In this document: piece by piece, positions 33,803-50,497 of the stretch
How positions within the stretch are numbered: position 1 is the first letter of the stretch
Layout of the letters: each line of letters begins with the position of its first letter
Assembly: GCA_022647575.1 (NCBI GenBank)
Contig: JALCKY010000001.1
Coordinates: 372,001 to 436,000 of the forward strand
Reading direction: 5' to 3'
Origin: Lachnospiraceae bacterium
Lineage (GTDB): Bacteria > Bacillota > Clostridia > Lachnospirales > Lachnospiraceae
Length of the DNA: 64,000 nucleotides
Notes under the pieces: model-generated
What the model saw: only the letters and a program-made list of their open reading frames with translations
What the model was told of the DNA's origin: nothing
Databases searched by the model: none
Program-made: the position numbers and the translations under genes

Positions 33803-36056
33803 TCTTCTTCCTCCTGATGCGCCCCATGATCAGCAGCAGCACGAAAACAGCTGCTCCGGTGAAAGAGATCAGTGCTCCCTTTTTAAAACACGGACAGCTG
33901 TAACGGTAAGTCACCGTATGGCTGCCGGCTTTCAGCTGTACACCGAGAAAGCCTTTCTCCGTAAGGACTGCCGGCGTTTCCTGCCCGTCCACTTCAACCG
34001 TCCATCCCAGTTCATAGGGGATCGCCGTAAAGAGAAGTCCGTCTTTTGATACATTCACGGATGCCGACACGAAATCACTTTTCCCCGTATCGGAAATTTC
34101 AATTTCTGCATCCGTATCTCTCTTTTCATATTCAACTTCCGCGCCGACATCGATTTCGGAATAATCGCCTTCATCGTAGAAGCTGGAGATATTTTTCACG
34201 CTTGTGCTTTTGAAGACCGTGTAGTCCCCGAAATGGGCATACGGCTCATAGCCGGGCAGGTTCTGGTTGTCCCGCTTCGCGATGATGTATTTGATTCCGA
34301 CCAGCTGTGCCTGATCCGTGTCCCGGGATCCCAGGGAAAAATTCAGATGATTCTGGTCATGATAACTGAGCGATGACCAGTAGGTGTCAACATAGGCACG
34401 CGTGAAGCTGTTCATGGTTGAATTGTATGTGCTGACGGGATGATAGTCCTGAACCAGGGAATCCATGCAGGAAGTCGCGCCGAAGGTCTTCTCGATCCTG
34501 TAATACTGCGTATCCGTCATTTTCAGATATTCCAGCGCCTGCTCGATATCGGAGGAGTACATGCTCTCGGTATAGCGGTCGCCGGTTTTATTGATCGTGT
34601 TCCTGCTGAAGAAAGACATATAAGTATCGCTCCAGACATTGACAGCCAGTCCGGCTGCCAGAACGATCAGCATGAAGCGGCGCACTTTTTCCGCCTTTGC
34701 ATACCGGAAAAACAGCAGGGCTGCACACATCAGCACGCCGGATGCCGAAAGAAGCAGGATGCCTTTCTTGGAATTCGAATAATCGCCTAAAATCGCCGTC
34801 CGGTAAAATACAAAGATGAGAAGTGCTGAAACCGCAAGAGCTGCCGGATTCATTTTCCTCTCCGTCACGATCCGGTGCAGCGTAAATCCGGACACCAGCA
34901 GGAAATAAGGCATATAGAGGAACGTGTACCTTGAGAAAGGAGCGGTGCCGCCGTTCATCAGGATTCCGGGTTCCATGAACAGAAGACCGGCCGCAGATGC
35001 AGCCGCCACCGCATAATGGATGACCTTGTTCTTCCGTGAAGTCTTCATCGAAGGAATCAGGAAAAGATACTGGAGAAAAAGAATTCCAAAAAGCATGGAG
35101 AAGAAAAGCTGCGGAGATTCATAATAATTCAGGTACCCGCCGAAGGCCGTGATTCCCTGGCTCGCACTTGAAAACAGACGCATGAAAAGCGTCTTGTAAT
35201 AAGACGTTGCATAAAAGCTTCCGAAATACAGGAGCCGCCCGATCAGGCTGTAGGAAGAGTAAAGCCTGGACGAGACGCGGATTGCCTGATAGGACGGCCA
35301 GAGATTGATGAATCCCATCATCAGGCCGAGGACCATGGGCCAGGCACAGGCCAGCACGCTCCGGAACCAGCTCACGAATTTCCCGTTCCGCATCAGGCAG
35401 CGCACCATCACATAGACAGCGCAGATGATCAGCGACATATAGGAAAGGTACATGCTGTCCAAAGCACAGATGCAGGTCATGACCGTCAGGGCAGGCCATC
35501 TGCGCGGGTCACGGATCCGCCGCTCAATCGTCCAGAGGAGCAGCGGCAGGATGAGACAGATCGCACCGAACTGATAATGCTGTCCCCAGACGATCAGAAA
35601 ACCGTTGAAGGCATACATGAACGAGGCAGCCGCCTTGGCTTTTTCATCCAGATGGAAAACGGAAAGATACAGGTAGGCGCAGACGGCACTTCCCATGATT
35701 TCGCCGATCAGCACATATACAAGGCAGGGAAGCAGGGCTTCATTTCCGAAAAGGAAACCGATGAGATAAAGAACCATCAGCACCGGATTTGTCAGATTAT
35801 AAAGGAAGAGATTCACGCCGAAGCCGTTGTTGGCATCCCAGAGCGAAAAATCTCCTCTCCTCAGTTTTCCGATAACGGAAGCATACTGCGAAAGGTACTG
35901 CTGAAGCGTGTCGTTGCCGACGTCACGGAAGGCCAGATACCGGTTTCCGAAAATATACGGATAAAAAGCCGCAACACAGACTGCTCCTGCCGCAATCAGC
36001 AGGAACAGAATGGTTTTCTTATTGACCTGTGTCAGTACCTTTGGGGCGGTTTCCAT
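33780..36056 (-). CDS. YfhO family membrane glycosyltransferase-like protein
   Basis: A 758-residue polytopic protein: about 12 hydrophobic helices, then an extracytoplasmic beta-rich domain (about 515-720), a last helix and a basic tail. The first loop carries FRDVGNDTLQQY and GDFSLWDANNGFG, the acidic signature of YfhO proteins. Family knowledge: B. subtilis YfhO and relatives transfer a sugar from an undecaprenyl-phosphate carrier, loaded by a GtrB/CsbB-type enzyme, onto a surface polymer. It lies inside the rhamnan operon, sharing one base with the rfbD stop, so side-chain decoration of that polymer is the likely role. Confidence 0.85.
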   Translation of the reverse strand: METAPKVLTQVNKKTILFLLIAAGAVCVAAFYPYIFGNRYLAFRDVGNDTLQQYLSQYASVIGKLRRGDFSLWDANNGFGVNLFLYNLTNPVLMVLYLIGFLFGNEALLPCLVYVLIGEIMGSAVCAYLYLSVFHLDEKAKAAASFMYAFNGFLIVWGQHYQFGAICLILPLLLWTIERRIRDPRRWPALTVMTCICALDSMYLSYMSLIICAVYVMVRCLMRNGKFVSWFRSVLACAWPMVLGLMMGFINLWPSYQAIRVSSRLYSSYSLIGRLLYFGSFYATSYYKTLFMRLFSSASQGITAFGGYLNYYESPQLFFSMLFGILFLQYLFLIPSMKTSRKNKVIHYAVAAASAAGLLFMEPGILMNGGTAPFSRYTFLYMPYFLLVSGFTLHRIVTERKMNPAALAVSALLIFVFYRTAILGDYSNSKKGILLLSASGVLMCAALLFFRYAKAEKVRRFMLIVLAAGLAVNVWSDTYMSFFSRNTINKTGDRYTESMYSSDIEQALEYLKMTDTQYYRIEKTFGATSCMDSLVQDYHPVSTYNSTMNSFTRAYVDTYWSSLSYHDQNHLNFSLGSRDTDQAQLVGIKYIIAKRDNQNLPGYEPYAHFGDYTVFKSTSVKNISSFYDEGDYSEIDVGAEVEYEKRDTDAEIEISDTGKSDFVSASVNVSKDGLLFTAIPYELGWTVEVDGQETPAVLTEKGFLGVQLKAGSHTVTYRYSCPCFKKGALISFTGAAVFVLLLIMGRIRRKKIERNAAL

Positions 36057-36973
36057 CAGCAGCTTCCCGTATCCTTCAGGATCTTCACGTACCTTCTGAG
36101 GGCATCCTGCCAGGTCGGCAGAGGCTCGAACCCTTCCTTACGGATTTTGGAGCGGTCCATCCGGCTGTTATACGGCCTTTTTGCCGCCGCGCCGTATTCA
36201 GCGGAAGTCACCGGAATCACGGTCATGTTCGTAAGACCGGCCTCCTTGAAAATCGCGCAGGCGAAATCATACCAGGAAATGTATTCCCCTTCATTCGTGA
36301 CATGATAGATGCCGTAACGGTCTGTCTGAATCATATCGACGACCAGGCGGGCCAGGTCATAGGTATACGTCGGTGTTCCGATCTGATCGCTGACCACCTT
36401 CAGGGTGTCATGCGTTTTGGATAGATTCAGCATCGTACGGATGAAATTCTTGCCGTTCACGCCGAAGACCCAGGCGATGCGGAGAATGAAATATTTCTCC
36501 AGATTATCCATGACCGCTGTCTCACCCTCGGCCTTCGTCTGCCCGTAGACATCGAGCGGATCCCGTCTGTCGTCCGGTTCCCAGGGCCGCGTTCCGTTTC
36601 CGTCAAAGACATAGTCCGTCGAAAAATACATCATCGGGATATCCAGGGATTTGCACATTCCTGCAATATTTGCCGTTCCTCCGGCATTGATTTTCCGGAC
36701 GAGTTCCTCGCACTCCTCTGCCTTGTCAACCGCAGTCCAGGCTGCGCAGTGGATGACCGCATCCACGCCGGCTTCGGAAATCGTCTTCTTCACGGCTTCT
36801 TCATCCGTGATGTCCATCGAGACATAAGGCATGCGCGTTACGGCGCTTCCGTCTGCCGCACCGCTGTACTGAGGAGCCAGATCGCTCCCGATTCCTTCCA
36901 TTCCGCGCCTGTCGAGCTCATTCATCACATCGTGTCCGAGCTGTCCTGCCACACCCGTTACCAATATCTTCAT
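36056..36973 (-). CDS. rfbD: dTDP-4-dehydrorhamnose reductase
   Basis: A 305-residue SDR enzyme, the last step of dTDP-L-rhamnose synthesis. The NAD(P)H loop is GVAGQLG at the N-terminus. STDYVFDG and the catalytic YGQTK (Tyr-x-x-x-Lys) follow. Length fits RfbD/RmlD. The other three rhamnose genes (rfbA, rfbB, rfbC) are 13 to 16 kb away at the head of the same operon, so the pathway is split but complete. Confidence 0.96.
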   Translation of the reverse strand: MKILVTGVAGQLGHDVMNELDRRGMEGIGSDLAPQYSGAADGSAVTRMPYVSMDITDEEAVKKTISEAGVDAVIHCAAWTAVDKAEECEELVRKINAGGTANIAGMCKSLDIPMMYFSTDYVFDGNGTRPWEPDDRRDPLDVYGQTKAEGETAVMDNLEKYFILRIAWVFGVNGKNFIRTMLNLSKTHDTLKVVSDQIGTPTYTYDLARLVVDMIQTDRYGIYHVTNEGEYISWYDFACAIFKEAGLTNMTVIPVTSAEYGAAAKRPYNSRMDRSKIRKEGFEPLPTWQDALRRYVKILKDTGSC

Positions 36974-36991: not shown

Positions 36992-39420
36992 TCAGTTTCT
37001 TTTCAGTGAAAAATCCTGCGTCACCATCGACAGATTCGGGTTGTAATACGGATCGCCGTCCCTCAGGATCTCCGGCCAGCGTTTCCGGAATTCCGCCATC
37101 TCATTCTGGAACCTTCTTACCTTTTCCGGCGTGTTTTTCCAGGCCGCGGGACCTTGACTCGTAATGATACAGCTCTGCATAAGGATTATAAACGATCAGA
37201 TAGCCGGCCTTCCTGAATTTCATGCACAGATCGATGTCATTGAAGGCAACAGCCAGCTTCTCCGTAAATCCTCCGACCTCGTTAAAAGCTTTCCTCTTCA
37301 CCATCATGCACGCTGCCGTCACGGCACTGTAATCCTGCTGGCAGATCACCCTGTGCATATAGCCGGTCTCTCCGCGTTTCTGATTGACAAATGCGTGCCC
37401 GGCGATGCCGCCCCATCCGACCACGACTCCGGCATGCTGAATCGTATCGTCCTCATAGTACAGCCGGGCTCCTGCTGCCGCCGTATCCGGCCTCATCGCA
37501 TATCCCAGCAGCTGTTCCATCACATCCGGGGAAATGAATTCCGTATCGTTGTTCAGAAGAAACAGGTATTCGCCGTCCGCCTTCTGCGCCCCGAAATTAT
37601 TGATGGCGGAATAGTTGAATCCTCCTTCGTAGCGTTCGATCCGGATGCGATAGACTGTCTGCTTTCAGTTTTTCATAATAGCGGAAAGTCTCCTCTTCCG
37701 TGCTGTTGTTCTCAATAATCACAATATCATAATCCGGATACTTCGATTTCTCCCGGATCGAGTTCAGGCAGCGTTCAAGTTCCCGGACATGATCTTTATT
37801 CGGAATTAAAATACTGACCTTCGGCTGCTCCTTCCAGTGCCAGCTGGTCACGTAGATGCCCGGGTACTCTCCTTTTTCAACCGTCGCCGGCAGGCCCAGC
37901 CTTTGGTAATGCGCCTCGACTGCCCTTTTCCCGGCATCGAAGGCATAGCTCTTGCTTTCCGGATTCGCTGCCGTCGATCCTTCAAAGAATCTCCAGTGGT
38001 ACAGGATCTTCGGGATATGACGGATCTTGTCCGTCTGCTCAGTGCACCTGAGGATAAAATCATAATCCTGCGCGCCGTCATAAGCGGGATCAAGTTTTCC
38101 GACCCGGTCGATCAGCGTTTTCTTCACTGCAAGCAGATGGCAGATGTAATTGACCGAAGTCAGAAGATCCGGATCGAAATCCGGCTTAAGGTTCGGCTGC
38201 ATGTATTTATCGCCGGTCCCGATCTTATCCTCATCTGAATACATCAGTTCCGTATCCGGATAAAGATTCAGCGTACGGACGAGTTCATAAAGCGCATTCG
38301 GCGTCAGCAGGTCGTCATGGTCCGCAAACACGATCAGGCTGCCCTTCGCGGCATCGACAGCCGCGTTTGTATTCTCCGCGATGTGCAGCTGCTTTTCATT
38401 TTTCAGCACGCGGATCCTGGGTTCTTCCGCTGCAAGGCGTTCCAGGAGAGGGGTAAGGGGCGAATCCGCTCCTGATCCGTCAGACAGGATCAGCTCCCAT
38501 TTTCCATAGGACTGGGCTTTCACCGATTCCGTCAGTTCCGTCAGGAATTTTTCCGGCGTCTTGTAGAGCGGCACGACGATGCTGATGAAAGGCTCATCCT
38601 CGAATTTCTCCGCCCTCTGCTTTGCCAGAAGATGCTCCGACGGAAGATGCTTCCTGATCCATTCCGCATAGATGACCGGCTTCATCGCCGGGTTGAAAGC
38701 TTTATCGTAGGTTTTCCTGACCAGTGCGGAAAACCCGTTGTATTTCAGATAGCGGGTTCCTTTCCGGAGAAGGCGCGAAGCTTTTTCCGTCTTCACGGAA
38801 ACCGTATCCGTCCTGTATTCACGGATGCATTTTCCCTTTCCCGCACGGAAAAGGACATAGATTTTTTTCTCCGGTACCGGCCGGATCTCGATATTGAATC
38901 CGGAATTCACATCAACCGGATATTCGTCAAAGAGGCTGACAACGTCCACCCTTTTATATCTTTCGACCGTACAGTCAAGCTTCTTCTTTCCCGCATCCAG
39001 CACGGCGATTTCCACCGGCTCCTTCGCCGCCGCCCAGCCCTGCAGACGGAGAAGCCCGTCTTTGGGGATTACGCTGAAGTCATCGATGAAAACCTTGATA
39101 TCCTGCATCTTTTCAGCCAGTTCCGCGGTGGAGATCTCAAAGCAGAGCCTTCTGCTCCCGTTCTCCCGGCAGGCATAGATTTTCAGGATCCGATGGGAAG
39201 CAATATCTTCCGGTATTTCAAAACAGGCGCGCGCTTCGGAACCTCCGAACCGCTCGTCCACGTTTTCGGTCATTTTCTCCAGACGCAGCGGAAAGGGCTG
39301 TCCGTCGAGGGCAGCCGTCAGTTCCGTACGGGGAGCAATCCATCCCAGCAGGAAATACTGATTTTTTTCGGTCAGTGAAAAACGGTCGTTTTTCACCAGA
39401 AATCCGTTATTGACCATCAT
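36992..39420 (-). pseudogene. Tandem-domain GT2 glycosyltransferase with extra N-terminal domain, broken by two frameshifts
   Basis: After removing two extra bases this would be an 808-residue protein. Residues 1-215 are a beta-rich N-terminal region unlike its neighbours. Two GT-A domains follow: first SIVVPLYKTPE, DHDD, GAQDYDFILR; second SILIPNKDH, IENNSTEEE, then LNNDTE and FNDIDLC in the second frame; it ends GDPYYNPNLS. Break one is near 37653-37660 after the codons for YYEKLKAD. Break two is in a five-base A run (T run on plus strand) at 37134-37138 after SRGLE. Both are single extra bases. ATG 39420 was chosen because it is the first start within reach of the upstream gene's end, which it overlaps by 14 bases. 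Confidence 0.85.
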
Positions 39421-41740
39421 GTTCCGTTTTTTCCCCGTCTGCGTCAAAATTCGTGTAATTCGGAGGGATCGTCCCCTTCAGGATATAGCCGGATGTCATA
39501 TAGTCCAGATTCGGGTTGAAGTACGGATCGCCGTCGCGGTAGATATCCGGCCAGCGCTCCCTCAGGATGGCTGCCTCGTTCATCTGCCGTTCATGCTTAG
39601 CGGCATCCGCTTCCGCTTTGTCTGAGCCTCTCGAAAGCGATTCATAATGGGTCAGCACAGCCCAGGCATCGTATACGACAAGAAGTCCTTTTGCCCGTAC
39701 CTTCAGGCAGAAATCAACATCGTTATAGGCAACGGCCAGCTTCTCTTCAAAACCTCCGGCCTCGTCGAATACTTTCCGGCTCGTCATCAGGCAGGCACCC
39801 GTGACGGCGCTGACATCCTGCGTCTTGAAGACCCTTCCGAAATAGCCTCCGGAATTCTTTTTTTCATACAGACAGATGTGTCCGGCAATTCCGCCGATTC
39901 CGACGACGATGCCGCAGTGCTGCAGGCGCCCGTCCGGATAGTAGAGGCGTACGCCGCAGATGCCGACATCTTTCCTCTGGCAGTAGCCCAGCATTTCCTC
40001 GATCCAGCGTTCTGTCACGACTTCCACATCGTTGTTCAGGAAAAGCAGATATTCGCCCTTCGACTGCGTCACGCCGAAATTGTTGATGGCCGAATAATTG
40101 AAAGGCCTGTCCCATTTCACGACCCGTACATTCGGATGGGCTTTCTGCAGTTCCTCATAATAGGCAAAGGTTTTCTCTTCGGTGCTTCCGTTCTCCACGA
40201 TCAGAATTTCAAAATTCCGGTAAGTTGATTTCGTGAAAATGGAATCCACCGCCCGTTTCAGGGAATCCGACTGATCCCGGTTCGGTATGATAATGGAAAC
40301 GAGCGGGTTCCCCTGGATCCGGTAAACCGAACGGTAGCTGCCGATATCTTCGGCAAGAGACGCCTCGGCCGGAATTCCCACCCGGTCATAGTGGGCCTGG
40401 ATGGCCTTCCGTCCGTTGTCATAGGCATACATCTTTGATTCCGGGTTTCCGGAAGTCGAAGAATCATGCGATCTCCAGTGGTACAGGAAACGGGGAATAT
40501 GGCAGATCTTCCGGGCCTTTTCACAGCAGCGCAGGATCAGATCATAGTCCTGGGCTCCGTCGAATTCACTTCTCTCCCCGCCGACTTCATCGAGAATGGT
40601 TTTTCTTACGCAGAAGATATGCGTAATGTAATTGTTGCTGCGGAGCAGGTCCGGATTGAAATCCGGTTTGAAATTCGGGCTGTAGTATACCCCCTCTGTC
40701 AGCATGATCTTGTCTTCGTCCGTATAAAGGGCATCGATTTCCGGATCTTTATTCAGTGCGGAGACAATTTCATAAAGGGCATCCGGTTCGATCGTATCGT
40801 CATGATCGCACAGCATGATGAATTCCCCGTGTGCCATTCCGACAGCCGCATTCGTATTTTCGGAAATGCCTTTGTTCTCCGAAAGCCTCTGATAAAGGAT
40901 CCGCGGGTCGGAAGCGTATTTTTCACGGATGCGGTTTTCCGCTGCATCCCCGGTGCTGCCGTCCGCAAGACACACTTCAAAGTTTCCGTAAGTCTGCGCC
41001 AGGATGCTGTCCAGAAGCTCATCCAAAAACTTGACCGGCGTATTGTAAAGCGGGATGACAATGCTGATTTTGCAGGACCGGTCGAACTTCGTCTTTCGCT
41101 GTGCTTCCAGCTCTTCCGAAGTCGCCAGATGGTCATGAAGCCAGTCGTTATAGCCTCCGCTGTCAATGGCATAGACCGGATGGGCATTCTGATCGATATA
41201 ATTCCTGCGCTCTTTTTCATCCGTAATGACATGCACGTGCATCGCATAGTATCCGAATTCATTCATGAATTCGACCGAAAGGTCCTCGTGCCGGAAAAGG
41301 GATACCGGAACCTTGACGGTAAAGCCCGTGCAGGTATCCGGCTGAATCTTCAGAAGATCATTCACGTCGCTCCGCGGATAACGGATCAGGGAGGAAGGTT
41401 CGAGAATACGGCTGCGGTCTCTCAGCAGAATCGGTGTTTCCTCGCCGCTTTGGTCATGAACCCAGCCGCGGACAACGACATCTCCTTTTCGATAGGAAAC
41501 GGAATCGATATTGGCAAGGATGCCTTCCGGAGAAGTGCCCGTCTGCGGGCGCAGCTGTTCAAACGGATCTCCCGATCCGCGCATCCGGCCGTATTTCCTT
41601 GCAACGAGCATGGGCTTTGCAGACTCAACGGCGGCAATCCTGCGCTGGAGTCCGATTGCGGCCTCCCTGGCTTTGCGGTAGCGTTCCTGAAGCCTGTCAT
41701 ACTCTTCTTTCAGTTCCTGGTATTCCGTTTTTTCAGACAT
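39407..41740 (-). CDS. Tandem-domain GT2 glycosyltransferase with N-terminal coiled coil
   Basis: A 777-residue protein. Residues 1-42 form a heptad-like charged helix, probably a coiled coil. Residues 60-200 are a beta-rich region, then come two GT-A domains: SIVIPLYNTPV, DHDD and GAQDYDLILR in the first, SIIIPNRDQ, VENGSTEE, LNNDVEV and YNDVDFC in the second. It ends GDPYFNPNLD like its paralogues. It follows the kinase-like/coiled-coil gene by 7 bases. The adjacent coiled coils could be an interaction surface between polymerase and terminator, as WbdA and WbdD interact in E. coli; that is inference. Confidence 0.87.
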   Translation of the reverse strand: MSEKTEYQELKEEYDRLQERYRKAREAAIGLQRRIAAVESAKPMLVARKYGRMRGSGDPFEQLRPQTGTSPEGILANIDSVSYRKGDVVVRGWVHDQSGEETPILLRDRSRILEPSSLIRYPRSDVNDLLKIQPDTCTGFTVKVPVSLFRHEDLSVEFMNEFGYYAMHVHVITDEKERRNYIDQNAHPVYAIDSGGYNDWLHDHLATSEELEAQRKTKFDRSCKISIVIPLYNTPVKFLDELLDSILAQTYGNFEVCLADGSTGDAAENRIREKYASDPRILYQRLSENKGISENTNAAVGMAHGEFIMLCDHDDTIEPDALYEIVSALNKDPEIDALYTDEDKIMLTEGVYYSPNFKPDFNPDLLRSNNYITHIFCVRKTILDEVGGERSEFDGAQDYDLILRCCEKARKICHIPRFLYHWRSHDSSTSGNPESKMYAYDNGRKAIQAHYDRVGIPAEASLAEDIGSYRSVYRIQGNPLVSIIIPNRDQSDSLKRAVDSIFTKSTYRNFEILIVENGSTEEKTFAYYEELQKAHPNVRVVKWDRPFNYSAINNFGVTQSKGEYLLFLNNDVEVVTERWIEEMLGYCQRKDVGICGVRLYYPDGRLQHCGIVVGIGGIAGHICLYEKKNSGGYFGRVFKTQDVSAVTGACLMTSRKVFDEAGGFEEKLAVAYNDVDFCLKVRAKGLLVVYDAWAVLTHYESLSRGSDKAEADAAKHERQMNEAAILRERWPDIYRDGDPYFNPNLDYMTSGYILKGTIPPNYTNFDADGEKTEHDGQ

Positions 41741-41747: not shown

Positions 41748-42788
41748 CTATTGATTCCTTCCGAGTACTTTCCTTACTTTGTTGACAGCCTTCCAGGACT
41801 TTGTCCCGACCACCAGCTCATATCTCTTTTTCCACAGATTGCGGTCCGCATCCAGTTTCTTATATTCATTGATCAGATTGGCATATTCCTTTTCCGTCTG
41901 ATCGAAGCGGGCGACCTTGGTCTGCATTTCCTCTATGGCCTGGGAACAGGTCCGCCACATTTTCGCTGAAAGCAGAGCAGACTTGCGGACCTCCGTATAT
42001 TGATTCCTGATTTTTTCTGTTTCTTCGATTTCCGCCGAAGCCGACAGATGCGGCTTAAGCAGCGACTGTTTTCCGAGTGCCAGACTGCTGCCGTCGGCTT
42101 CCAGGATGACATGGTTCCAGAAGTGGATGTAGGACGCCTCCAGTTCCCTGATATCCGTCCTGACTCCGAGGTAATCCATGGCAGATGCAATCGGATAGAA
42201 TTCTTCCAGTCCGTCGATATGATAGTAGAGGTCATGCACGCTGTGGTAAATGACCAGGTCCTTCGGCATGCTGAATTTCATGACCCACTCATAATCGATG
42301 AAATAGATATCCGGTCCCCGATAGATGATATTTCCCGCAATGGCATCGAAATTCGCAATCTTAAAGCCTTCCTGTCCTTCATAAACCGCAGCGTCGCCGA
42401 ACCAGTTGAAGAAATCCGCACTCCCTTCGAAAACCGCTTCATTTTCCGGATTGATTGTAAGCAGCCTGCAATGCTCCGTCAGGTTTGCCTCGAACTCATC
42501 CCGGCTTCTCTTTTCAACGGCTTTCCTGTAACGGTCCTCAAGAGTCTCGCCCTCGATGAACTCGAAGTTCAGAACAGGCCCGTCCTGCACGACGGGGCAT
42601 GCCTTGACCGGCGCATATACCCTTTCCAGCACCTCAGGGTTCTGCATGATATCCCTGATGTGGGAAATCCCCTCCGGATAGGCGGCTTCCTTCGTCACGA
42701 CTTTCCTGCCGTCTTCTTCTCCGATTTCCGTTATGACAGAAAAAATACGGTTCCTCTCATCCGAACATTTTATGAAAGACTTTTTCAT
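41748..42788 (-). CDS. Kinase-like protein with C-terminal coiled coil (WbdD kinase-ruler-like)
   Basis: A 346-residue soluble protein. The first 240 residues carry protein-kinase-like fold landmarks: Lys33 on a beta strand (VVTKEA), a hinge LNFEFIEGETL at 73-83, a catalytic-loop-like FDAIAGN (Asp148, Asn153) and FIDYEW (Asp165). Residues about 255-325 are a charged heptad helix. The end (SWKAVNKVRKVLGR) resembles the SWKxTxPLR tail found on chain-length and glycosyltransferase proteins. It starts inside the stop of the methyltransferase gene (ATGA). Methyltransferase, kinase, coiled coil is the domain order of E. coli WbdD, which caps O-antigen with methyl phosphate and measures its length. 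That match is by architecture only. Confidence 0.72.
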   Translation of the reverse strand: MKKSFIKCSDERNRIFSVITEIGEEDGRKVVTKEAAYPEGISHIRDIMQNPEVLERVYAPVKACPVVQDGPVLNFEFIEGETLEDRYRKAVEKRSRDEFEANLTEHCRLLTINPENEAVFEGSADFFNWFGDAAVYEGQEGFKIANFDAIAGNIIYRGPDIYFIDYEWVMKFSMPKDLVIYHSVHDLYYHIDGLEEFYPIASAMDYLGVRTDIRELEASYIHFWNHVILEADGSSLALGKQSLLKPHLSASAEIEETEKIRNQYTEVRKSALLSAKMWRTCSQAIEEMQTKVARFDQTEKEYANLINEYKKLDADRNLWKKRYELVVGTKSWKAVNKVRKVLGRNQ

Positions 42789-43717
42789 TTTGCACTCCTC
42801 TTAGCTTCCACCAGGAATGAATTGGCGAAAATTTCCCTCTCCGCGCTGCCTCTCAGGGATTCCAGTGCCCTGACCTGCGAAAACAGATGCAGGATATCCT
42901 TATCGTAATTGGTATATTCCGAGAACTCCAGATGGGCATCACGGAATGTGCTTTCATCATAGATTGCCGAAGGAAGCTTATAGTCCGGCATCGGATAATA
43001 GAATTTCAGGCTGCCGAAACCGCTCTCGCTGACCAGCTTCTCCAGCTCCGATTTCGAGAACGTCCTGACTTTGTCCTCCTTCGTATAGCCTTCGATTCCC
43101 GCAAACGCCTTCCCGAGATGATCCTCATGATATCCCGAGAAATATTTCATTCCGAGCCTGTTTTCAATGGCAATATAGACCCTGCCGCCCTCTTTCAGAC
43201 AGGAGGCTGCCTTCTTCAGCATTTCATGGTACGGGTCTTCGCCGCCCACATAGTTTTCCGCGTATTCCAGGACGCCGATCAGCATGACGGCATCATATTT
43301 TTCCGTTATCACGATATCTTTGAAATTCCCGACCATGATCCGGATTCCGTCGAGGTCCTTATGCCTCCAGGCATTGATCATCGAACGTCTTTTGGAAAGT
43401 TCGATGCAGTCGACGCTGCCTGCCCTTTTCGCAAAAGCACCCGTCACGGCACCCATTCCGGCTCCGATCTCCAGCACGCTGTCCTTACGGCCGATGTCCA
43501 TCGGAATCGCGATGTTTTCCCTTTGACGGATCAGATGATAAAGGACCGGCCAGGAGGAAAAAATCTCCCTGCTGTGTTCATAATCGGGTGTCGTTTTCAC
43601 GATATCCAGGATTCTGTTTTCTATGTCATCCCCGTCGCTGTAAAGATCCTGTCCGCTGTAATACTGATAATCCAGCGTGACTTTTCCGATCTTCTCCTGC
43701 TTGTTCTGATCCGTCAC
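42785..43717 (-). CDS. Class I SAM-dependent methyltransferase of polysaccharide locus
   Basis: A 310-residue Rossmann methyltransferase. Motif I is VLEIGAGMGA at 81-90, the acidic ribose-binding residue is in DCIELS, and the post-motif LIGVLEY follows. IENRLGMKYFSGYHEDHLG and FAGIEGYTKED mark a subfamily often found in glycan clusters. Long flanking regions suggest a protein- or glycan-sized substrate. It overlaps both neighbours by 4 bases (RgpF upstream, kinase-like downstream). A role in methylating the non-reducing end of the exported polymer, together with the kinase-like protein, is inferred from gene order. Confidence 0.82.
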   Translation of the reverse strand: MTDQNKQEKIGKVTLDYQYYSGQDLYSDGDDIENRILDIVKTTPDYEHSREIFSSWPVLYHLIRQRENIAIPMDIGRKDSVLEIGAGMGAVTGAFAKRAGSVDCIELSKRRSMINAWRHKDLDGIRIMVGNFKDIVITEKYDAVMLIGVLEYAENYVGGEDPYHEMLKKAASCLKEGGRVYIAIENRLGMKYFSGYHEDHLGKAFAGIEGYTKEDKVRTFSKSELEKLVSESGFGSLKFYYPMPDYKLPSAIYDESTFRDAHLEFSEYTNYDKDILHLFSQVRALESLRGSAEREIFANSFLVEAKRSAK

Positions 43718-45390
43718 TGCCTTGTCCCCCTGATTTTTTCTAACATGAATTGGAACCGGTCCGGTCCGAAACGCTTGAATATCATCGCGTTATTCAGCCG
43801 CAGCTTATAATCTTCATTCGTCGTCTCTACAGCCGCATAATGATTGCTCATGACAATGCCCGTATAGTATCCGAAAGACTGTGCCAGATACGGAAGCAGG
43901 AATTTCATGACTTCGTCATCCGGAACAAGTCCTTCCAGAGGCAGCCCGGCAATCGCCGCAAGAAGTTCCGTCCTGATCCAGAAGGCTCCTCCGTACGGTA
44001 CGACCGGATGCGGATTGATAGCGTGGATGTCGGCCTTGATGTCCAGCTGATCCAGGATCCTTCTGACAGGTTCCATGTGTCCTTCCCATCCGTCTCCGAC
44101 CTTCCAGAAGAAGATGCCGAAGTTGACGACCGGCGGCGTCAGTATCCCGAGCCGGGGTTCCTCGCCGAACTGGTCGAATACATTTCCGATGAATGCTTCA
44201 GACGGAATCGTATTTTCCAGATCCCTGTACAGCAGCGATGCCCAGTTGTCATGCGACCAGCCGTCGCGCGTCATATCGAACAGATCGATGATGCAGGAAA
44301 AAGAATATCCTGCAGCCATCTTCCCGGCTTTCAGCAGCTTGGCCGTATACGATTCTCCGCCGTCCAGAAAAACCTTCCGGACATTTTCGGGAATGCAGGG
44401 TGCATAGCGGTAGGCAACTTCCTCGAATTTCTCCCGGCTTCCGAAAATAAAAACGATCCCCTCGTCATTTCCGCTGAATTCATGTTCCGTAACTTCGCCC
44501 GGCAGACAGAAATCCATATGCATGGTCTGATGCAGTTCCGCCAGGTCGCAGGTTCTCAGGAGATGCTGCCAGATCAGCTTCGTATTGTAGTCCGTCTTTT
44601 CTTTTATAAACCGGTAAGTCTCCGGCCCCGTCTCACCGCAGGTATTGTTCAGGATTTCCGTGTAGTCCGCACAGAAAACGCCGCGGCTGACAAACGGGCA
44701 TCTCCTGTCCTGCAGCAGGTGCTGCGTCTCATATTTAAACGGATCGACCGTCACTCCTTCATATTCCGAAGTATCGACATAGACATCCCATTTGAACTTA
44801 TGGTCTGAGAAATACTTCGTGGCCGGCCTTACGAAGCTGTCGAAAGCCTGCTCTTCATTTTCCGGATCCTGCAGATTGAAAAGAAAGTGCTTGAAACAGA
44901 ATCCTTCAATCAGCGTCTTCCTCATGGCAAAGAAATGAGGATCAATGTATTCCGGGTGCGGCGTTTTCCCAATGATTCCCAGGGGATCCCCGTCAAAGGA
45001 ATGATGTTTGACCAGGCCCCAGAAGTCCACCTTCCGGCTTTCCATTTCATTCAGCATCTCAGAGAGCGGAAAGATCGGCCCGAACAGGGAGTCATCGGTG
45101 AAGATCACCTCATTATACTGTTCCAGCTCCCTGAATCCGATATAATACATGGCTTCGCGGAAAGCACCGGCCCGGCCGCCGATCGTCGTCCTGGTCAGAA
45201 GTCCGTCGGAAACCGCGGAAAGCTTTTCCATGGACTCATCGGTAAGAAAGCCGTTGGCAACGACGAGGATCGTGCTGTTATTTTCCTGAAACTCATGAAG
45301 GGCATGAATGATGTAGTCATCCACGATGCCCTCGTGATCATAGATATAATAAATGACATATCTGCTTTTCGTATCAGAATGGATGCTCAT
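43714..45390 (-). CDS. Rhamnan synthesis F family protein (second copy)
   Basis: A 558-residue RgpF-family protein. It opens YVIYYIYDHEGIVDDY, the usual RgpF start where a short Rossmann-like strand meets the GIVDDY motif, then has the FTDDSLFGPIFPLSEM segment that corresponds to the donor site, and a repeat of that layout in the C-terminal half (FIKEKTDYNTKLIWQHLLRT). RgpF proteins extend or cap the polyrhamnose backbone of streptococcal wall polysaccharide. The ATG at 45390 was picked because family similarity begins there; a longer frame from a TTG overlaps the upstream gene. It is a paralogue of the gene upstream. Confidence 0.87.
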   Translation of the reverse strand: MSIHSDTKSRYVIYYIYDHEGIVDDYIIHALHEFQENNSTILVVANGFLTDESMEKLSAVSDGLLTRTTIGGRAGAFREAMYYIGFRELEQYNEVIFTDDSLFGPIFPLSEMLNEMESRKVDFWGLVKHHSFDGDPLGIIGKTPHPEYIDPHFFAMRKTLIEGFCFKHFLFNLQDPENEEQAFDSFVRPATKYFSDHKFKWDVYVDTSEYEGVTVDPFKYETQHLLQDRRCPFVSRGVFCADYTEILNNTCGETGPETYRFIKEKTDYNTKLIWQHLLRTCDLAELHQTMHMDFCLPGEVTEHEFSGNDEGIVFIFGSREKFEEVAYRYAPCIPENVRKVFLDGGESYTAKLLKAGKMAAGYSFSCIIDLFDMTRDGWSHDNWASLLYRDLENTIPSEAFIGNVFDQFGEEPRLGILTPPVVNFGIFFWKVGDGWEGHMEPVRRILDQLDIKADIHAINPHPVVPYGGAFWIRTELLAAIAGLPLEGLVPDDEVMKFLLPYLAQSFGYYTGIVMSNHYAAVETTNEDYKLRLNNAMIFKRFGPDRFQFMLEKIRGTRQ

Positions 45391-45400: not shown

Positions 45401-47188
45401 CTATGATTTCGATACAAGATCCAGGAAGTTATGGAATTCCTGGAAAGTCTGGATCCGGCGCGATTCCTCAAGTTCCAGTCCGGAATTGATATAGGACCAG
45501 TTATCGATGTGCGTCCCCGCGTAGGAATCCGCGAGCAGCCAGGCCGAATAATATCCCTGGCTCTGTGCGCAGTACGGGAACAGCCTCTCGATTGCATGGA
45601 GCACGGTCGCATCAATGTCGATCGGCTCTTCCGGGAAATCTTCGTATTTCCATCCGTATTCAAACATCGGCCTCAGCGCATCTGTCCTTACCCAGAAGAC
45701 CGATCCCAGCGGCGCAATCGGCTCCAGCTTTTCGCTCATCGGAGCTTTCAGCTTAAGCTGATCCGCCAGTTCCCTGGTGACCTTGTAGTTCCTGCCCCAT
45801 TCGTTCTCGCCCGTTGTCGGGAAATACGGCCCGTGCAGGGGAGGCGGCGGCATCATCATGCCCAGACGCGGATTCTTCCGGAAGGTTTCGATGACATTTT
45901 CCACGAAGACATCATTGTGCAGGACGTTTTCATACAGCATGTGTCCCCAGGACTGTCCGATGGTCGGCGGCTGGGTCTGACGTGTTTTCTTATCATGGAT
46001 TTTACAGACAAGATCGTACTTCAGAAAGACATCGGCGCAGCCGCAGAGGAACGGAGCAATGTCCCTTCCTCTGTTGCCGGTGATCCTGTATTCGATCCTG
46101 TAGTCTTCTTCGAGTCCCCGGAATGCATTCCGGGCTTTTTCCCGCTTTGCTTCATCCGGCACCGTGATGTAGATATCGCTGCCCTTCGGCATGTGCGCCG
46201 CGTATTCCCTGCATACGGCAGCCTGGTCATCGTAATAAAGATGGATGATCAGGGCGCAGGTCATTTCCGACGGCTGCTTGTTCAGTCTCAGCTTCGAGGA
46301 TAGGATATAGTTCAGATGCATCCTTCTCTTCATTTCCGCCATATGCTCCGTCCGGAGCAGGTTCTTCCAGATCATGTCGACATCATAGTCGAAATGATCC
46401 CGGATGTAATCCAGTGCCTCCAGCGTGCATTCTCCGCCGCTGCGCAGGAAAGCTTCCTCATAATCCTGGAAGAAGGAGCGCCTCTTGATGATCGGGCATC
46501 TCTGCTTTTCGAACTGATAGCGGGGGAAGTCCCTCAGCGGATCCCAGGTGAAGCCTTCGAAAGGCGCCGGATCGCAGTAGGCTGCCCATTTATATCCCCG
46601 GTCTGACATTTCCTTCGTAAAGATCGCTTCATGGAATCCGATTGCTTCACCGTAGGTATGTATTTCCGGAAGATCCTTCCACCAGTTCCGGAAGTCGTCC
46701 GTCTTCATGAAATCCTGACGGAAGACATGGAAATAAGACTGAAGATGCTGCGGAAGATAATGGTACTTGCAGGTTCCGTTCGGGTCAAAGGGAATTTCAT
46801 GGAAAGCGGATATTCCCCAGAAATCAAGATCGCGCTTCGCCATCGAGTCAAACATTTCCGAGAACGGATAAAACGGTCCGAACACCGTCGCGTTGCAGAC
46901 GATGGCTTCGTCGTATGAGCACAGCGTATCATAGCCGTCCCTGAAAAGGCCCAGATTGTAGGCCGTAATGTCAAGGCCCTTGTTCTCGCGGACCAGGACT
47001 TCAGAAGAGCAGGCCTGAAGCTTTTTGATTCCTTCTTCCGTGACCTTGCCGTTGACGATGCAGAGGATTCTGTCCGTCACTTTCTGAAGTTCCCGCAGGA
47101 AATAGGTGCTGTAATCGTCTACGATTCCTTCCCCGTCGTAAAAGACAAAAATGGCATAGCGCTTCGGATGCTTCTTCGTCAGGATCAC
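45401..47188 (-). CDS. Rhamnan synthesis F family protein (first copy)
   Basis: A 595-residue RgpF-family protein with the same layout as its downstream neighbour: YAIFVFYDGEGIVDDYSTYFL near the N-terminus, NATVFGPFYPFSEMFDSM, and a C-terminal half with the acceptor-like NRGRDIAPFL and KIHDKKT motifs. GRDIAPFL is the best-known RgpF signature. It overlaps wzt by 4 bases and lies 10 bases before the second copy. Having two copies suggests two different rhamnosyl linkages or a backbone and a branch. Confidence 0.88.
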   Translation of the reverse strand: MILTKKHPKRYAIFVFYDGEGIVDDYSTYFLRELQKVTDRILCIVNGKVTEEGIKKLQACSSEVLVRENKGLDITAYNLGLFRDGYDTLCSYDEAIVCNATVFGPFYPFSEMFDSMAKRDLDFWGISAFHEIPFDPNGTCKYHYLPQHLQSYFHVFRQDFMKTDDFRNWWKDLPEIHTYGEAIGFHEAIFTKEMSDRGYKWAAYCDPAPFEGFTWDPLRDFPRYQFEKQRCPIIKRRSFFQDYEEAFLRSGGECTLEALDYIRDHFDYDVDMIWKNLLRTEHMAEMKRRMHLNYILSSKLRLNKQPSEMTCALIIHLYYDDQAAVCREYAAHMPKGSDIYITVPDEAKREKARNAFRGLEEDYRIEYRITGNRGRDIAPFLCGCADVFLKYDLVCKIHDKKTRQTQPPTIGQSWGHMLYENVLHNDVFVENVIETFRKNPRLGMMMPPPPLHGPYFPTTGENEWGRNYKVTRELADQLKLKAPMSEKLEPIAPLGSVFWVRTDALRPMFEYGWKYEDFPEEPIDIDATVLHAIERLFPYCAQSQGYYSAWLLADSYAGTHIDNWSYINSGLELEESRRIQTFQEFHNFLDLVSKS

Positions 47189-48483
47189 GGTTTCTGCTCC
47201 TTATCATCAATAAAGACCTTGGAATCCATATCATAAAACCCGGTCGTATTCTTCTCTGAAATCACATTGATGTCGCATACGTCATAAAGTCTCTGATAGA
47301 CGCTGAACTTGCTGTGTGCAAAGCCTACGACGCCGAATGAAAGCAGGTAGCTCCTTCCCTGAAGGTTCATGACCTGGCTGAAATCAACCGTATGGACATC
47401 GTTCTTTTTGATTTTCCCCGTATCGATGCCTTCGAACATCGTATTGGTTCCGGTGATTTCCGTTCCCTGGGCATCCTTGATCGTAAAGCAGTAAAGCGGA
47501 TCTTCCATATCCATGTTGAACCGGACTTTCATCCGTATGATGAACCTGGTGCCTTTTACGATGCTGGAGTTGATCTCGCCCTTTTCATCAATAATGGCGA
47601 AGTCCTCGATCGTGGCTTCCTTCCCGCCGTATTCCAGAAGATGCGGGTTCATTTCAAGTTTCGAATACCACTTTCCCCTGGAGGCATCCTTATTGAGATA
47701 CCGGGAGATGTCCTCCTTGATGGCCGACCGCGGATCCGCGACCGGAGTCGCGACCATGACCTGCTTGTAAATATCGATGACGGTCTTCGGCTTTCCTTCG
47801 GTCTTCTTGACTCCCTTATTGAGAAGCACGACACGGTCGCAGTATTTCGCGACGCTTCCGAGGTCATGGCTGACGAAGAGGATTGTCTTTCCCGCTTTCT
47901 TGAATTCATCAAACTTGTGGTAGCACTTGGCCTGGAAGAAAACATCTCCGACCGAAAGCGCTTCATCGACGATCAGGATTTCCGGATCGATATTGATGGC
48001 CACGGCAAAAGCCAGGCGGACGAACATGCCGCTGGAGTAGGTCTTGACCGGCTGGTTGATGAAATCGCCGATATCCGCAAACTCCAGGATCTGCTGCAGA
48101 CGGGCGTCTATCTCTGCCCTGCTGAAGCCCATCATCGTACCGTTCAGATAAATGTTCTCGATGCCGGTGTATTCTCCGTTGAAGCCGGCACCCAGTTCGA
48201 GCAGCGCCGAGATTCTTCCCTTGACGGTCACGGTGCCGGAGGTCTGGCTGAGGACTCCGGTAATAATCTTCAGCATGGTTGATTTTCCGGAGCCGTTGGT
48301 TCCGATGATTCCCACGCACTCTCCCTTCCTGACGTTGAATGAAACGTCATTCAGGGCATAAAGCTCCGTATAATGGATTTTTTTGGAAAGCCCCAGCGAT
48401 TCCTTGAACCGGTCTGAAGGATTCTTGTACAGCTTATACAGTTTTGTGATATGGGAAACGTCAATTGCTATTTCTTCGTTCAT
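47185..48483 (-). CDS. wzt: Polysaccharide ABC transporter ATPase with C-terminal substrate-binding domain (Wzt)
   Basis: A 432-residue protein. The ATPase half (about 1-255) has Walker A GTNGSGKST at 61-69, signature YSSGM at 149-153, Walker B ILIVDEA with Glu174, and the switch His in SHD. The remaining 170 residues are a beta-sandwich-like domain (about 280-432) of the Wzt C-terminal type. In E. coli O8/O9a this domain recognises the modified end of the finished glycan before export. It overlaps the first rgpF gene by 4 bases and lies 8 bases after wzm. Confidence 0.93.
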   Translation of the reverse strand: MNEEIAIDVSHITKLYKLYKNPSDRFKESLGLSKKIHYTELYALNDVSFNVRKGECVGIIGTNGSGKSTMLKIITGVLSQTSGTVTVKGRISALLELGAGFNGEYTGIENIYLNGTMMGFSRAEIDARLQQILEFADIGDFINQPVKTYSSGMFVRLAFAVAINIDPEILIVDEALSVGDVFFQAKCYHKFDEFKKAGKTILFVSHDLGSVAKYCDRVVLLNKGVKKTEGKPKTVIDIYKQVMVATPVADPRSAIKEDISRYLNKDASRGKWYSKLEMNPHLLEYGGKEATIEDFAIIDEKGEINSSIVKGTRFIIRMKVRFNMDMEDPLYCFTIKDAQGTEITGTNTMFEGIDTGKIKKNDVHTVDFSQVMNLQGRSYLLSFGVVGFAHSKFSVYQRLYDVCDINVISEKNTTGFYDMDSKVFIDDKEQKP

Positions 48484-48491: not shown

Positions 48492-49904
48492 TTACAGAAT
48501 GTCCGCAAAATGAACCTTCAGGCGTTTGAAGATAAATGTCCCGATTCCGAAAAAGATGACCGTGACAATCCAGAAGTATATCGTCAGGTCAAAGCGATTC
48601 CAGAACCATACATGGTTCATCATCGTATCCCTGTATCCATTGGCGATGTAATAAAGCGGGTTGAGCTTGAAAATAACGATCAGCCATCCCGGCATCGTAG
48701 AACCCATCGTATCCAGATTCCACATGATCGGTGTAAGCCAGACCTGCACCTGGATGATGATGTTGATGATCTGCGACAGATCCCGGAAGAAAATGACGAT
48801 GGAGCAGGTAGCATAGCAGACGCCCAGACTGTAGAGGAACAGGGCCCCGGTATAATACAAAAGCTGGATGATGATGACTCCGGGGAAGTGACCCGACAGC
48901 GTGAACAAAAGGATCATCAGGCCGATAAAGAAAATATGCACGAACAGGGCCGAAATCTCCTTGACGATCGGAAGGATGCTGATCTTGAAGACTACCTTCT
49001 TGACCAGATAGCTGTATTCCAGAAGGGCACCCGTGCCCCCCAGCAGCGTATCCTGGAAGAAGAACCAGGGGACGAGACCGGCAACCAGCCACAGCACGAA
49101 GGGGTAAGTCACTCCGTTCTGCGCCGTGACATCGCCCGAATGCAGACCCACCTGGAAAACGAACCAGTAGATCAGGACCGTGACGGCCGGCTGCACGAAA
49201 GCCCAGGTGATTCCCAGGACAGAACCCGCATACCGGGTCTTGAAATCATTTTTCGCAAGCTGCATGATCAGCTTGCGGTTCTGGTACAGTTCGACCGGAA
49301 GCGTCGAAAAACGTTTCCGGAACACAAAGAGCATGGCGACGAACAGATCGAACAGCACCGTGTAGACAATGTTCTTGATGATGTTCCGCTGCGTGATGCT
49401 GCTTAAGATCGGCGCCGCAAGTTCCGTCGGACCTTCATTGACGATGATGAACGGATCCTTGCCTGTCGACTCGACCGTCAGGACTCCGTTTTCCAGGACC
49501 GGATCCTGAAGGTCTTTGATCTGATACGCTTTGCCGGATGTGAATCCGGACAGGTCGAGTTCCTGCTCCGTTTTTCCGTAGCTGTACCAGATACGCGAAA
49601 TCTTAAAGACAGATCCGATCTGTCCTCCGAAGTCGATACGCAGGAAAGTGGCATAGGACGGCTGGGAATACGTCAGCGTCTTCTCAGTGCCTGCCTTATC
49701 GTAATTGACGACAGATGAATCCTTTGCCGCGAATTCCGGGGCCGTACCGTAAAAGGACTGGATATCATCCGTCACGCTGCCGGTCATGGTGACATGCAGG
49801 GTCACGTTGTCATACGTCGGTCCCTTATGCGTCAGCAGGAGAAAGTTCATCCCGATGACCAGAAGGGCAAGAATAACGAGAATGATTTTTTTCTTTGAAG
49901 ACAT
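48492..49904 (-). CDS. wzm: Polysaccharide ABC transporter permease with N-terminal extracytoplasmic domain (Wzm-like)
   Basis: A 470-residue protein. The last 265 residues are an ordinary ABC-2 type permease of the Wzm/TagG family (six helices, start QNRKLIMQLAKNDFKTRYAGS). Before it there is an unusual module: a first helix (8-25), an extracytoplasmic beta-rich region of about 150 residues (26-175), and a second helix (177-195). Typical Wzm proteins are about 260 residues and lack this. An AGGAGA site precedes the ATG. It lies 8 bases after rfbC and 8 before wzt. The extra domain may receive or gate the polymer outside. Confidence 0.9.
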   Translation of the reverse strand: MSSKKKIILVILALLVIGMNFLLLTHKGPTYDNVTLHVTMTGSVTDDIQSFYGTAPEFAAKDSSVVNYDKAGTEKTLTYSQPSYATFLRIDFGGQIGSVFKISRIWYSYGKTEQELDLSGFTSGKAYQIKDLQDPVLENGVLTVESTGKDPFIIVNEGPTELAAPILSSITQRNIIKNIVYTVLFDLFVAMLFVFRKRFSTLPVELYQNRKLIMQLAKNDFKTRYAGSVLGITWAFVQPAVTVLIYWFVFQVGLHSGDVTAQNGVTYPFVLWLVAGLVPWFFFQDTLLGGTGALLEYSYLVKKVVFKISILPIVKEISALFVHIFFIGLMILLFTLSGHFPGVIIIQLLYYTGALFLYSLGVCYATCSIVIFFRDLSQIINIIIQVQVWLTPIMWNLDTMGSTMPGWLIVIFKLNPLYYIANGYRDTMMNHVWFWNRFDLTIYFWIVTVIFFGIGTFIFKRLKVHFADIL

Positions 49905-50473: not shown

Positions 50474-50497
50474 TTTGCATTTCCGTCCTTCCGAATT

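Follow-up and report, generated by a model that had tools for sequence, protein, structure and literature searches.

How a rhamnose polymer that leaves the cell through a Wzm/Wzt-type ABC exporter would be terminated in a Gram-positive bacterium is the question raised by a locus of a Lachnospiraceae bacterium (GenBank assembly GCA_022647575.1, contig JALCKY010000001.1), in which a methyltransferase gene overlaps a gene encoding a kinase-like protein within a rhamnose operon. The locus lies in the window, that is, the whole stretch of 64,000 nucleotides analysed here (positions 372,001 to 436,000 of the contig). A preliminary description had read both proteins, hereafter MT and KIN, as a methyltransferase-kinase chain terminator, a reading supported by their domains, the conservation of their residues and their kinship to the O7 terminator of Klebsiella. 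It is quite probable that MT and KIN constitute an O7-type terminator encoded on two overlapping genes, which would cap the rhamnose polymer for export by Wzm/Wzt.

Organization of the locus

The operon has the order rml-wzm-wzt-rgpF-rgpF-MT-KIN-GT2 and, like all features given here, is encoded on the minus (-) strand. The genes rmlC, rmlA and rmlB for dTDP-L-rhamnose synthesis (49913..52522) are open reading frames named from their own sequence, and their frames show 78-86% identity to the counterparts in loci L041, L044, L047 and L064. The last gene of this pathway, rmlD (ORF at 36056..36973), is found behind the second double glycosyltransferase gene, a position common to L039, L041 and L044. 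The exporter permease Wzm (48492..49904) matches Pfam ABC2_membrane over residues 213-428 (E 2e-13) and carries about 190 additional N-terminal residues, while the exporter ATPase Wzt (47185..48483) matches ABC_tran and ends in a C-terminal carbohydrate-binding domain (Wzt_C, E 1e-35). This substrate domain had been correctly described; the adjacency of Wzt to MT had not, as two rgpF genes (43714-47188) intervene. They encode RgpF-type rhamnosyltransferases at 45401..47188 (PF05045, E 2.9e-180) and 43714..45390 (PF05045, E 1.5e-88 on a longer frame), the second of which probably starts at MSIHSD and overlaps the MT start by 4 bases.

MT (42785..43717) is a SAM-dependent methyltransferase of 310 aa with a GTG start, matched by Pfam methyltransferase domains (best PF08242, E 1.7e-8). 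KIN (41748..42788) has 346 aa, with a kinase-like domain (residues 1 to ~230) followed by a C-terminal tail of ~115 residues. The 4-base overlap reported between both genes consists of the bases ATGA, shared by the MT stop and the KIN start, with the stretch gaggag upstream. Next to KIN is GT2a (39407..41740), a double GT2 glycosyltransferase by its Pfam domains with a short N-terminal coil; the coil had been noted before, and none of 300 shuffles was equally good as its heptad periodicity. A second double GT2, GT2b (37101..39447), occupies two frames in the window due to an apparent frameshift just ahead of the stop at 37597, and its counterpart is a single frame of 808-810 aa in L039, L041, L042 and L044. 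The window also contains a LytR-CpsA-Psr family gene (28226-29404; PF03816, E 2.8e-31) and a polyprenyl-phosphate sugar transferase gene (29422-30840; PF02397, E 5.1e-72), which likely serve wall attachment and priming.

Catalytic residues of KIN

The kinase landmarks previously assigned to KIN (K33, D148, N153 and D165) are present at these positions and are invariant in an alignment of 36 sequences, comprising the window protein and 35 relatives that share 20-53% identity with it, some being near-copies of one another. Among the 107 KIN genes including that of the window, and with gaps excluded, K33 was conserved in 107/107, D148 in 104/104, N153 in 105/105 and D165 in 106/106. At an E threshold of 0.1, none of the 36 aligned sequences matched a Pfam kinase family, and a direct sequence search of the PDB with KIN gave nothing meaningful. 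A profile search of the same database produced only weak matches to JAK1 in the N-lobe (E 0.11), a hint at most. NCBIfam models matched a few of the 36 members weakly with kinase-fold families amid many chance matches (thiamine kinase, 2; Bud32 models, 2, 1 and 1; LanKC, 2; GntI, 1). By its sequence, KIN is a putative kinase-fold protein. Relatives of KIN were absent from plasmids as searched by tblastn, as were relatives of MT from viral contigs.

Comparison with O7-type terminators and WbdD

The Klebsiella O7 terminator (PMC11231755), a methyltransferase-kinase of a family other than that of WbdD, acts on rhamnose and is the appropriate prototype for the pair. In vitro assays and NMR reported there showed that ORF6-O7 adds phosphate, and then (partly) methyl, at O3 of the terminal rhamnose, and that its D441A mutation abolishes activity. 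The comparison with ORF6-O7 was made through a proxy, the Pseudomonas asturiensis protein P0010, judged to be an ortholog from its residue numbering: it carries Y28, Y66, G91, G93, E112 and Y158 at the exact published ORF6-O7 positions, and its catalytic Asp is residue 443 versus the published D441. Window D148 aligned with D443. MT is 37% identical to the P. asturiensis O7-type protein (E 3e-51; hhalign 100%), and in the alignment to P0010 the six SAM-site residues of ORF6-O7 are all identical in the window MT (Y26, Y60, G85, G87, E106 and Y152). Counted in 97 family members with gaps taken as misses, Y26 was found in 75, Y60 in 92, G85 in 94 and Y152 in 76, and the other two residues vary family-wide, G87 being present in 83/97 and E106 in 49, with Asp in its place in 48/97.

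The KIN profile matched the P. asturiensis O7-type kinase (hmmsearch E 5.1e-9 on a 1000-sequence scale; hhalign 96.3%) as well as a two-sequence O7 profile (hhalign 96.95%), and the hhalign controls reached at most 0.23% in 10 shuffles and at most 1.17% in ten other stretches. The second O7-type protein, from Citrobacter, gave a weak match to KIN by itself (28%) and lacks the Asp of the second metal site; conservation of K33 in the O7-type proxies is not clear. GT2a shows 41% identity (E 2e-125) to residues 883-1440 of the P. asturiensis protein, and thereby corresponds to the GT-GT modules at the C-terminus of the O7-type terminators.

The preliminary description had related the pair to WbdD instead. 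The WbdD proteins of E. coli O9a and Klebsiella O3 are alike in principle, with a methyltransferase, a kinase and a C-terminal helical tail in this order (PMC3482155), and a genuine WbdD-family terminator divided over two genes, with both domains descended from WbdD and the coil acting as a WbdD-type trimeric ruler, would agree with this module order, with the wzm-wzt-terminator-polymerase gene order also seen in E. coli HS and with a similar SxSW tail motif (KIN carries TKSWK close to its end). Such an origin is already contradicted by the sequence comparison, and membership of MT and KIN in the WbdD family was rejected as exceedingly improbable. KIN compared with the WbdD kinase gave an hhalign value of 0.3%, and Pfam APH and Pkinase are matched by the WbdD kinase, but not by KIN or by either of the two O7-type proteins. 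MT aligned with WbdD solely over the SAM-binding core (59.6%), up to WbdD F131 and MT L150, with WbdD Arg203 falling outside the alignment; directly past this point MT has E151-Y152, where WbdD has His132-His133, a pair essential for phosphate methylation (PMC3482155). Moreover, WbdD acts on mannose (PMC3482155), unlike the rhamnose-type system of the window.

Fused and split layouts

KIN was detected in 104/200 genomes of the family of the window, taken as Lachnospiraceae, corresponding to about half of the sampled genera. The layouts were compared in 107 loci, namely the window, 6 loci from named records and 100 drawn from the remaining 107 KIN loci (7 left out). MT accompanies KIN in 105 of these, fused to it in 57 and adjacent in 48, so that the genome-wide search for the adjacent pair proposed earlier found it repeatedly and rarity of the pair was rejected. 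In a set of 108 loci, 57 had been labelled as fused by equal frame length; one of them (G084) was coincidental, being really two frames, and after this correction 56 were fused, 43 split and 9 without MT at that cut-off. In the clade analysis (97 rows, each including 200 aa or more of MT), the window forms a clade of eight with seven related loci showing the same type of split, several of which are mutual near-copies. As the split recurs in these seven relatives, it is not a sequencing frameshift, an explanation rejected also on the basis of the ATGA overlap and the upstream stretch resembling a ribosome binding site. The split is real and represents one of several layouts; in 31/107 genes, for instance, KIN is joined to GT2 modules. 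The earlier statement that no split form had been described in Bacillota holds insofar as no report of an enzyme pair of the MT/KIN type in this phylum was found in the literature consulted; it has to be amended in that capped rhamnose glycans of Bacillota are known and the split is not rare.

The nature of the cap has to be considered in this context. KIN might phosphorylate the terminal rhamnose and the final cap nevertheless differ from methyl phosphate, for example as a 2,3-cyclic phosphate or through methylation of a sugar hydroxyl by MT. Precedents are a Clostridia glycan, proposed to be ABC-exported, which ends in 2,3-cyclophospho-rhamnose according to PMC6254364, and the plain methyl caps described for E. 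coli O8 (PMC3482155) and Geobacillus (PMC2943079). However, the presence of MT with KIN in 105/107 loci and the methyl phosphate produced by the nearest experimentally tested relative (PMC11231755) speak against a different cap, which is considered unlikely.

Association with one class of Wzt_C

A Wzt_C domain is encoded less than 2 kb upstream of KIN in 85/108 loci, and a further 13 have one within 15 kb. Among the 200 family genomes, 100 contain both KIN and Wzt_C, 4 have KIN without Wzt_C, 21 have Wzt_C without KIN and 75 have neither (Fisher p 3.5e-30). This count is preferred over the wzt BLAST label, assigned in 101/107 loci, because the label can take in other ABC ATPases. One class of Wzt_C, to which the window Wzt belongs, accompanies KIN in 100/101 genomes, the limit of this class (E 3.8e-35) having been set after the list was seen, with G067, a genome without KIN, just beyond it (2.3e-34). 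The Wzt reading domains were compared in 119/130 loci (11 in which no Wzt frame reached 380 aa were left out), two of the 19 KIN-less rows being second copies from genomes with KIN elsewhere; those of the two proteobacterial loci do not cluster with the domains of the KIN loci. Gene linkage alone could explain the pairing of KIN and Wzt_C. Based on this association, the C-terminal domain of the window Wzt is proposed as the reader of the cap.

The KIN tail and a model for chain termination

In a home-made heptad test, 14/300 shuffles were equally good as KIN residues 255-330, a stretch with few Gly and Pro, and 85/200 as the whole tail of the window protein. In eight further KIN tails the shuffles equally good out of 200 were 0 (L039), 0 (L047), 1 (L041), 8 (L053), 10 (L042), 66 (L147), 94 (L064) and 113 (L050), so that five of the nine tails lie at 10/200 or below and four at 66/200 or above. 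The KIN tail may be a coiled coil, with a weak signal in the window protein, and might act as a ruler together with the coil of GT2a. The weakness of the coil in the window KIN would be compatible with a pair that modifies a residue inside the chain or at its reducing end, or the lipid carrier, chain length being set otherwise. This is judged very unlikely in view of the near-perfect pairing with one Wzt_C class and the fusions of KIN to GT2 modules, and because of these two observations an end-capping role fits.

For the O7-type terminator favored here, the following sequence of events is proposed. A lipid-linked rhamnose polymer would grow in the cytoplasm on the RgpF and double-GT2 enzymes, KIN would phosphorylate the non-reducing terminal rhamnose (at O3 in O7) and MT would then methylate that terminal phosphate. 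The resulting methyl-phosphate cap would block further growth and make the chain a substrate for Wzm/Wzt export, with the C-terminal domain of Wzt reading the cap. A docking role, joining the terminator to the polymerase and setting the distance at which capping is possible, may fall to the tails of KIN and GT2a. As a bolder proposal, which we put forward only tentatively and hold to be rather doubtful, capping in this family could be modular, with methyltransferase, kinase, coil and polymerase repeatedly cut and rejoined and the terminator inherited together with one Wzt_C reading class as a matched writer-reader pair; the ruler of the window would then be two coils on two proteins obliged to pair, and a non-covalent three-protein machine would set the chain length.

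If the proposed termination is true, about half of the sampled genera would display a surface glycan whose end bears a modified phosphate, with a defined gene set for it, and the terminator family whose biochemistry was demonstrated in Klebsiella in 2024 would extend into Bacillota. The natural fused and split forms permit testing which joins matter for chain-length control, and MT/KIN with one Wzt_C class represents a defined candidate writer-reader pair. Enzymes of the MT/KIN type are also candidates for making the phosphate cap found on a Clostridia S-layer glycan.

Comparison with known systems

The closest described system is that of Klebsiella pneumoniae O7, which has in common with the window the order methyltransferase, kinase, GT2-GT2 and the presence of rml and wzm-wzt genes alongside, the kinase of ORF6-O7 being unannotated (PMC11231755). 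ORF6-O7 is a single polypeptide with a CBM and a coil between the kinase and the glycosyltransferases, whereas the window distributes the catalytic modules over three genes (MT / KIN-tail / GT-GT). Its orthologs are reported from alpha- and gammaproteobacteria, cyanobacteria and Methanoculleus, and the main text of PMC11231755 contains no Gram-positive term.

The Lcin_0519 family also combines kinase and methyltransferase in one protein, commonly with a coil and with Wzt, Wzm and glycosyltransferase neighbours, and is described as clearly distinct from WbdD, with an AlphaFold kinase model lacking the alpha-C helix (PMC9758233). Compared by this description it is probably the O7-type family, since it has members in Pseudomonadales and Klebsiella; it differs in being a prediction only, the groups named in PMC9758233 are all Proteobacteria and the description mentions no split form. 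For the other family of that report, Lani_1194/NoeA, the profiles found nothing in one stretch of S. meliloti pSymA, which may lack noeA.

In Bacillota, Geobacillus stearothermophilus WsaE is the counterpart for a poly-L-rhamnan exported by Wzm/Wzt, joining a methyltransferase and two GT modules and producing an end cap (PMC2943079). This cap is 2-O-methyl without phosphate, WsaE has three domains and no kinase, and the glycan goes to an S-layer protein; the window does not match this architecture, its kinase-like gene sitting between MT and the GT gene. The S-layer glycan locus of C. difficile Ox247 resembles that of the window in belonging to Clostridia, in its rhamnose-rich product, in its ABC exporter and in a phosphorylated terminal rhamnose proposed as chain end (PMC6254364). 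Compared by description, it differs by its 2,3-cyclic phosphate cap, and the word kinase is absent from the main text of PMC6254364. ABC-exported capped rhamnose glycans in Bacillota (PMC2943079, PMC6254364) had already been published, as had a proteobacterial family of kinase-methyltransferases with Wzm/Wzt as neighbours (PMC9758233).

Family of the MT/KIN pair

The genome holding the window (3.03 Mb, 11 contigs) encodes a SAM-dependent methyltransferase (MT, 310 aa; 42785-43717, minus strand), with methyltransferase domains in Pfam, and a kinase-like protein with a C-terminal tail (KIN, 346 aa; 41748-42788, minus strand), without a Pfam match worth naming. Judged by sequence, the pair is a member of the O7-type terminator family, that of ORF6-O7 of Klebsiella O7. 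The preliminary description had likened it to the E. coli terminator WbdD (methyltransferase, kinase, coil); kinship was contradicted by direct comparison with WbdD of E. coli HS, where the KIN profile reached 0.3% in hhalign. The WbdD family was rejected for KIN, as the WbdD kinase matches Pfam APH and Pkinase and none of 36 KIN sequences does. In its mode of action the pair is predicted to resemble WbdD.

With MT as the tblastn query, plasmids yielded two proteins, from Pseudomonas asturiensis (1457 aa) and Citrobacter braakii (649 aa), each encoded directly after ABC permease and ATPase genes. The P. asturiensis protein has Y28, Y66, G91, G93, E112 and Y158, the same six residues printed at exactly those positions for ORF6-O7 (PMC11231755), and its catalytic Asp lies at 443 (441 in ORF6-O7). 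Because these SAM-site residues carry identical numbers, it was taken as an ORF6-O7 ortholog and stands proxy for it. MT shares 37% identity with it over 293 alignment columns, and GT2a, the first double-GT2 gene after KIN, 41% with its GT2-GT2 end. In hhalign the KIN profile matched its unannotated domain at 96.3% and both O7-type proteins together at 96.95% (85.7% against the O7-type kinase with the first KIN profile); no KIN-O7 link was apparent from single sequences (blastp E 0.87). Against this assignment, the KIN profile scored only 28% with the Citrobacter protein alone, which lacks Asp at the second metal position, and K33 of KIN is not clearly retained in the O7-type proxies. A quick-method MT tree of 97 rows places the two proteobacterial sequences next to the eight-member clade that includes the window, though their branch is long and this grouping stays under the level for a star (90).

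Gene organization

Minus-strand genes run in the order rmlB, rmlA, rmlC, wzm, wzt, rgpF, rgpF, MT, KIN, GT2a, GT2b (the second double-GT2 gene), rmlD, YfhO, GT2, GT2, a sugar transferase and an LCP-family gene, the rml names resting on sequence and synteny. The reported four-base overlap of MT and KIN was confirmed: the shared bases are ATGA, and gaggag precedes the KIN start. The split was likewise found to be genuine, despite apparent frameshifts elsewhere in the window, since seven related loci (L039-L044, L047; KIN identity 37-44%, several of them near-copies) also have separate MT and KIN frames and form with the window a starred clade of eight. Among six named relatives found via KIN, five bear the name Lachnospiraceae and one Clostridia.

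GT2b (37101-37523 and 37597-39447, minus strand) occupies two frames in the window versus a single frame of 808-810 aa in L039, L041, L042 and L044, an apparent frameshift. By eye and from ORF lists, a protease-like gene whose N-terminus is of low complexity (22734-25230, minus strand) and a YfhO-like membrane protein gene (60692-63467, plus strand) also look frameshifted; three apparent breaks inside the window point to indel errors in the assembly. A divergent block (56298-63467, plus strand) of GT2, DegT aminotransferase, ATP-grasp and, by eye, YfhO-like genes, adjoined by a DUF7657/DUF7654 membrane protein (52636-55140, minus strand), possibly serves further decoration of the same glycan. 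The exporter permease Wzm (48492-49904, minus strand) is extended at its N-terminus by about 190 residues, which by eye form an outside domain flanked by two membrane helices. Among 91 Wzm frames from the loci, 13 were at least 459 aa and 77 at most 365 aa long, and the 12 RgpF-bearing loci had the long form in eight, a cut one in one, a short one in one and no Wzm seen in two.

Conserved residues and tail of KIN

The kinase residues singled out earlier (K33, D148, N153 and D165) are among the invariant positions of 36 aligned sequences. Among 107 genes including the window's, K33 is present in 107, D148 in 104 (3 gaps), N153 in 105 (2 gaps), and D165, E167 and W168 each in 106 (1 gap); no conserved Glu was seen soon after K33 among the alignment columns looked at.

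A coiled coil in the window's KIN is not established. In a home-made heptad test, 14 of 300 shuffles were as good as residues 255-330, compared with control values of 0/300 for the WbdD coil and 173/300 for the KIN kinase domain; for the whole tail the figure was 85/200, and for the tails of eight relatives 0-10 of 200 in five and 66-113 in three. The post-kinase tail measures 151-191 residues in 34 of 46 MT+KIN proteins without a GT, and 68 to 349 in 27 split KIN; the narrow range of the former, despite sequence divergence, could stem from a ruler or from kinship. Close to the KIN end lies TKSWK (41790-41804, minus strand), resembling a motif after the WbdD coil. Similar motifs occur in 17 of 99 KIN tails versus 2.1 in shuffles; eight of the 17 belong to the same clade as the window, and in one the motif sits at the wrong end.

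Distribution and layouts

In 200 genomes of the window's family (taken as Lachnospiraceae; each of another genus code, the window's own included), matches were obtained in 83 with the KIN sequence alone, 104 with the KIN profile, 98 with MT and 121 with Wzt_C, the C-terminal reading domain of the exporter ATPase Wzt. Across the class as a whole, KIN matches came from 26 of 391 genomes; 12 of these lie outside the family, in seven families, and 11 of the 12 have MT too.

The 107 loci comprised MT+KIN fusions followed by GT2 (35), MT followed by KIN+GT2 (21), three separate genes (17), MT+KIN (12), MT+KIN+GT2 (10), MT then KIN (9), MT then KIN+RgpF (1) and no MT (2), adjacency being partly built in for the profile-making loci (34-35 rows) and not for the remainder. 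Among the 57 fused proteins, 44 have 3-8 residues between MT and KIN. Mapping the fused/split label onto the MT tree takes a minimum of 17 changes, of which starred branches force six; shuffling gives a mean of 32.5. In L126 and L133 KIN is joined directly to an RgpF-type rhamnosyltransferase (frames of 985 and 1209 aa), so either enzyme type can be joined to the terminator.

Pairing with the Wzt reading domain

KIN and Wzt_C co-occur in 100 of the 200 genomes, with KIN only in 4, Wzt_C only in 21 and neither in 75 (Fisher p 3.5e-30, relatedness ignored). Of 108 loci, 85 have Wzt_C less than 2 kb upstream of KIN and 13 have it farther off but no more than 15 kb away; in the other 10, some of which lie on short contigs, that distance contains none. 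With a class limit chosen after the data were seen, the best-scoring Wzt_C class was present in 100/100 genomes having both; it occurs in 101, the sole one without KIN (G170) having an MT piece that runs off its contig, and KIN was found in 0/20 genomes with weaker Wzt_C only. In a tree of 119 reading domains, 96 from KIN loci and 19 others separate by one change. As the limit is post hoc and linked genes travel together, this pairing is read as association and not recognition. The two proteobacterial O7-type reading domains fall outside the KIN class (long branches, placement unsure), which disfavours one reader shared across phyla.

Proposed function

Given ATP and SAM, the O7 enzyme phosphorylates the terminal alpha-1,3-rhamnose at O3 and methylates part of that phosphate; its D441A variant is inactive (PMC11231755). 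Homology predicts that the end of the rhamnose polymer is phosphorylated by KIN and methylated by MT, which would stop growth and license export; a terminator function is predicted with good support. Reading of caps by Wzt C-terminal domains is established in other systems (PMC9445017). Given the LCP-family and sugar transferase genes in the vicinity, the polymer may be attached to the wall.

Comparison with known systems

No report of such an enzyme pair in Bacillota was found in the open-access PMC literature on terminators, Wzt and rhamnans, and the main text of the O7 paper (PMC11231755) contains no Gram-positive term. As far as the literature searched shows, the host group and the split layout are new. 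The Lcin_0519 kinase-methyltransferase family, distinct from WbdD, has 871 homologs outside Legionella, the groups named being all Proteobacteria, and Wzt, Wzm and a glycosyltransferase in 17-27% of neighbourhoods (PMC9758233); from its published description it is probably of the O7 type. Its AlphaFold kinase lacks an alpha-C helix (PMC9758233), in keeping with the KIN columns following K33. In Bacillota, precedents for capping are the 2-O-methyl cap made by WsaE (PMC2943079) and the 2,3-cyclophospho-rhamnose end of C. difficile Ox247 (PMC6254364).
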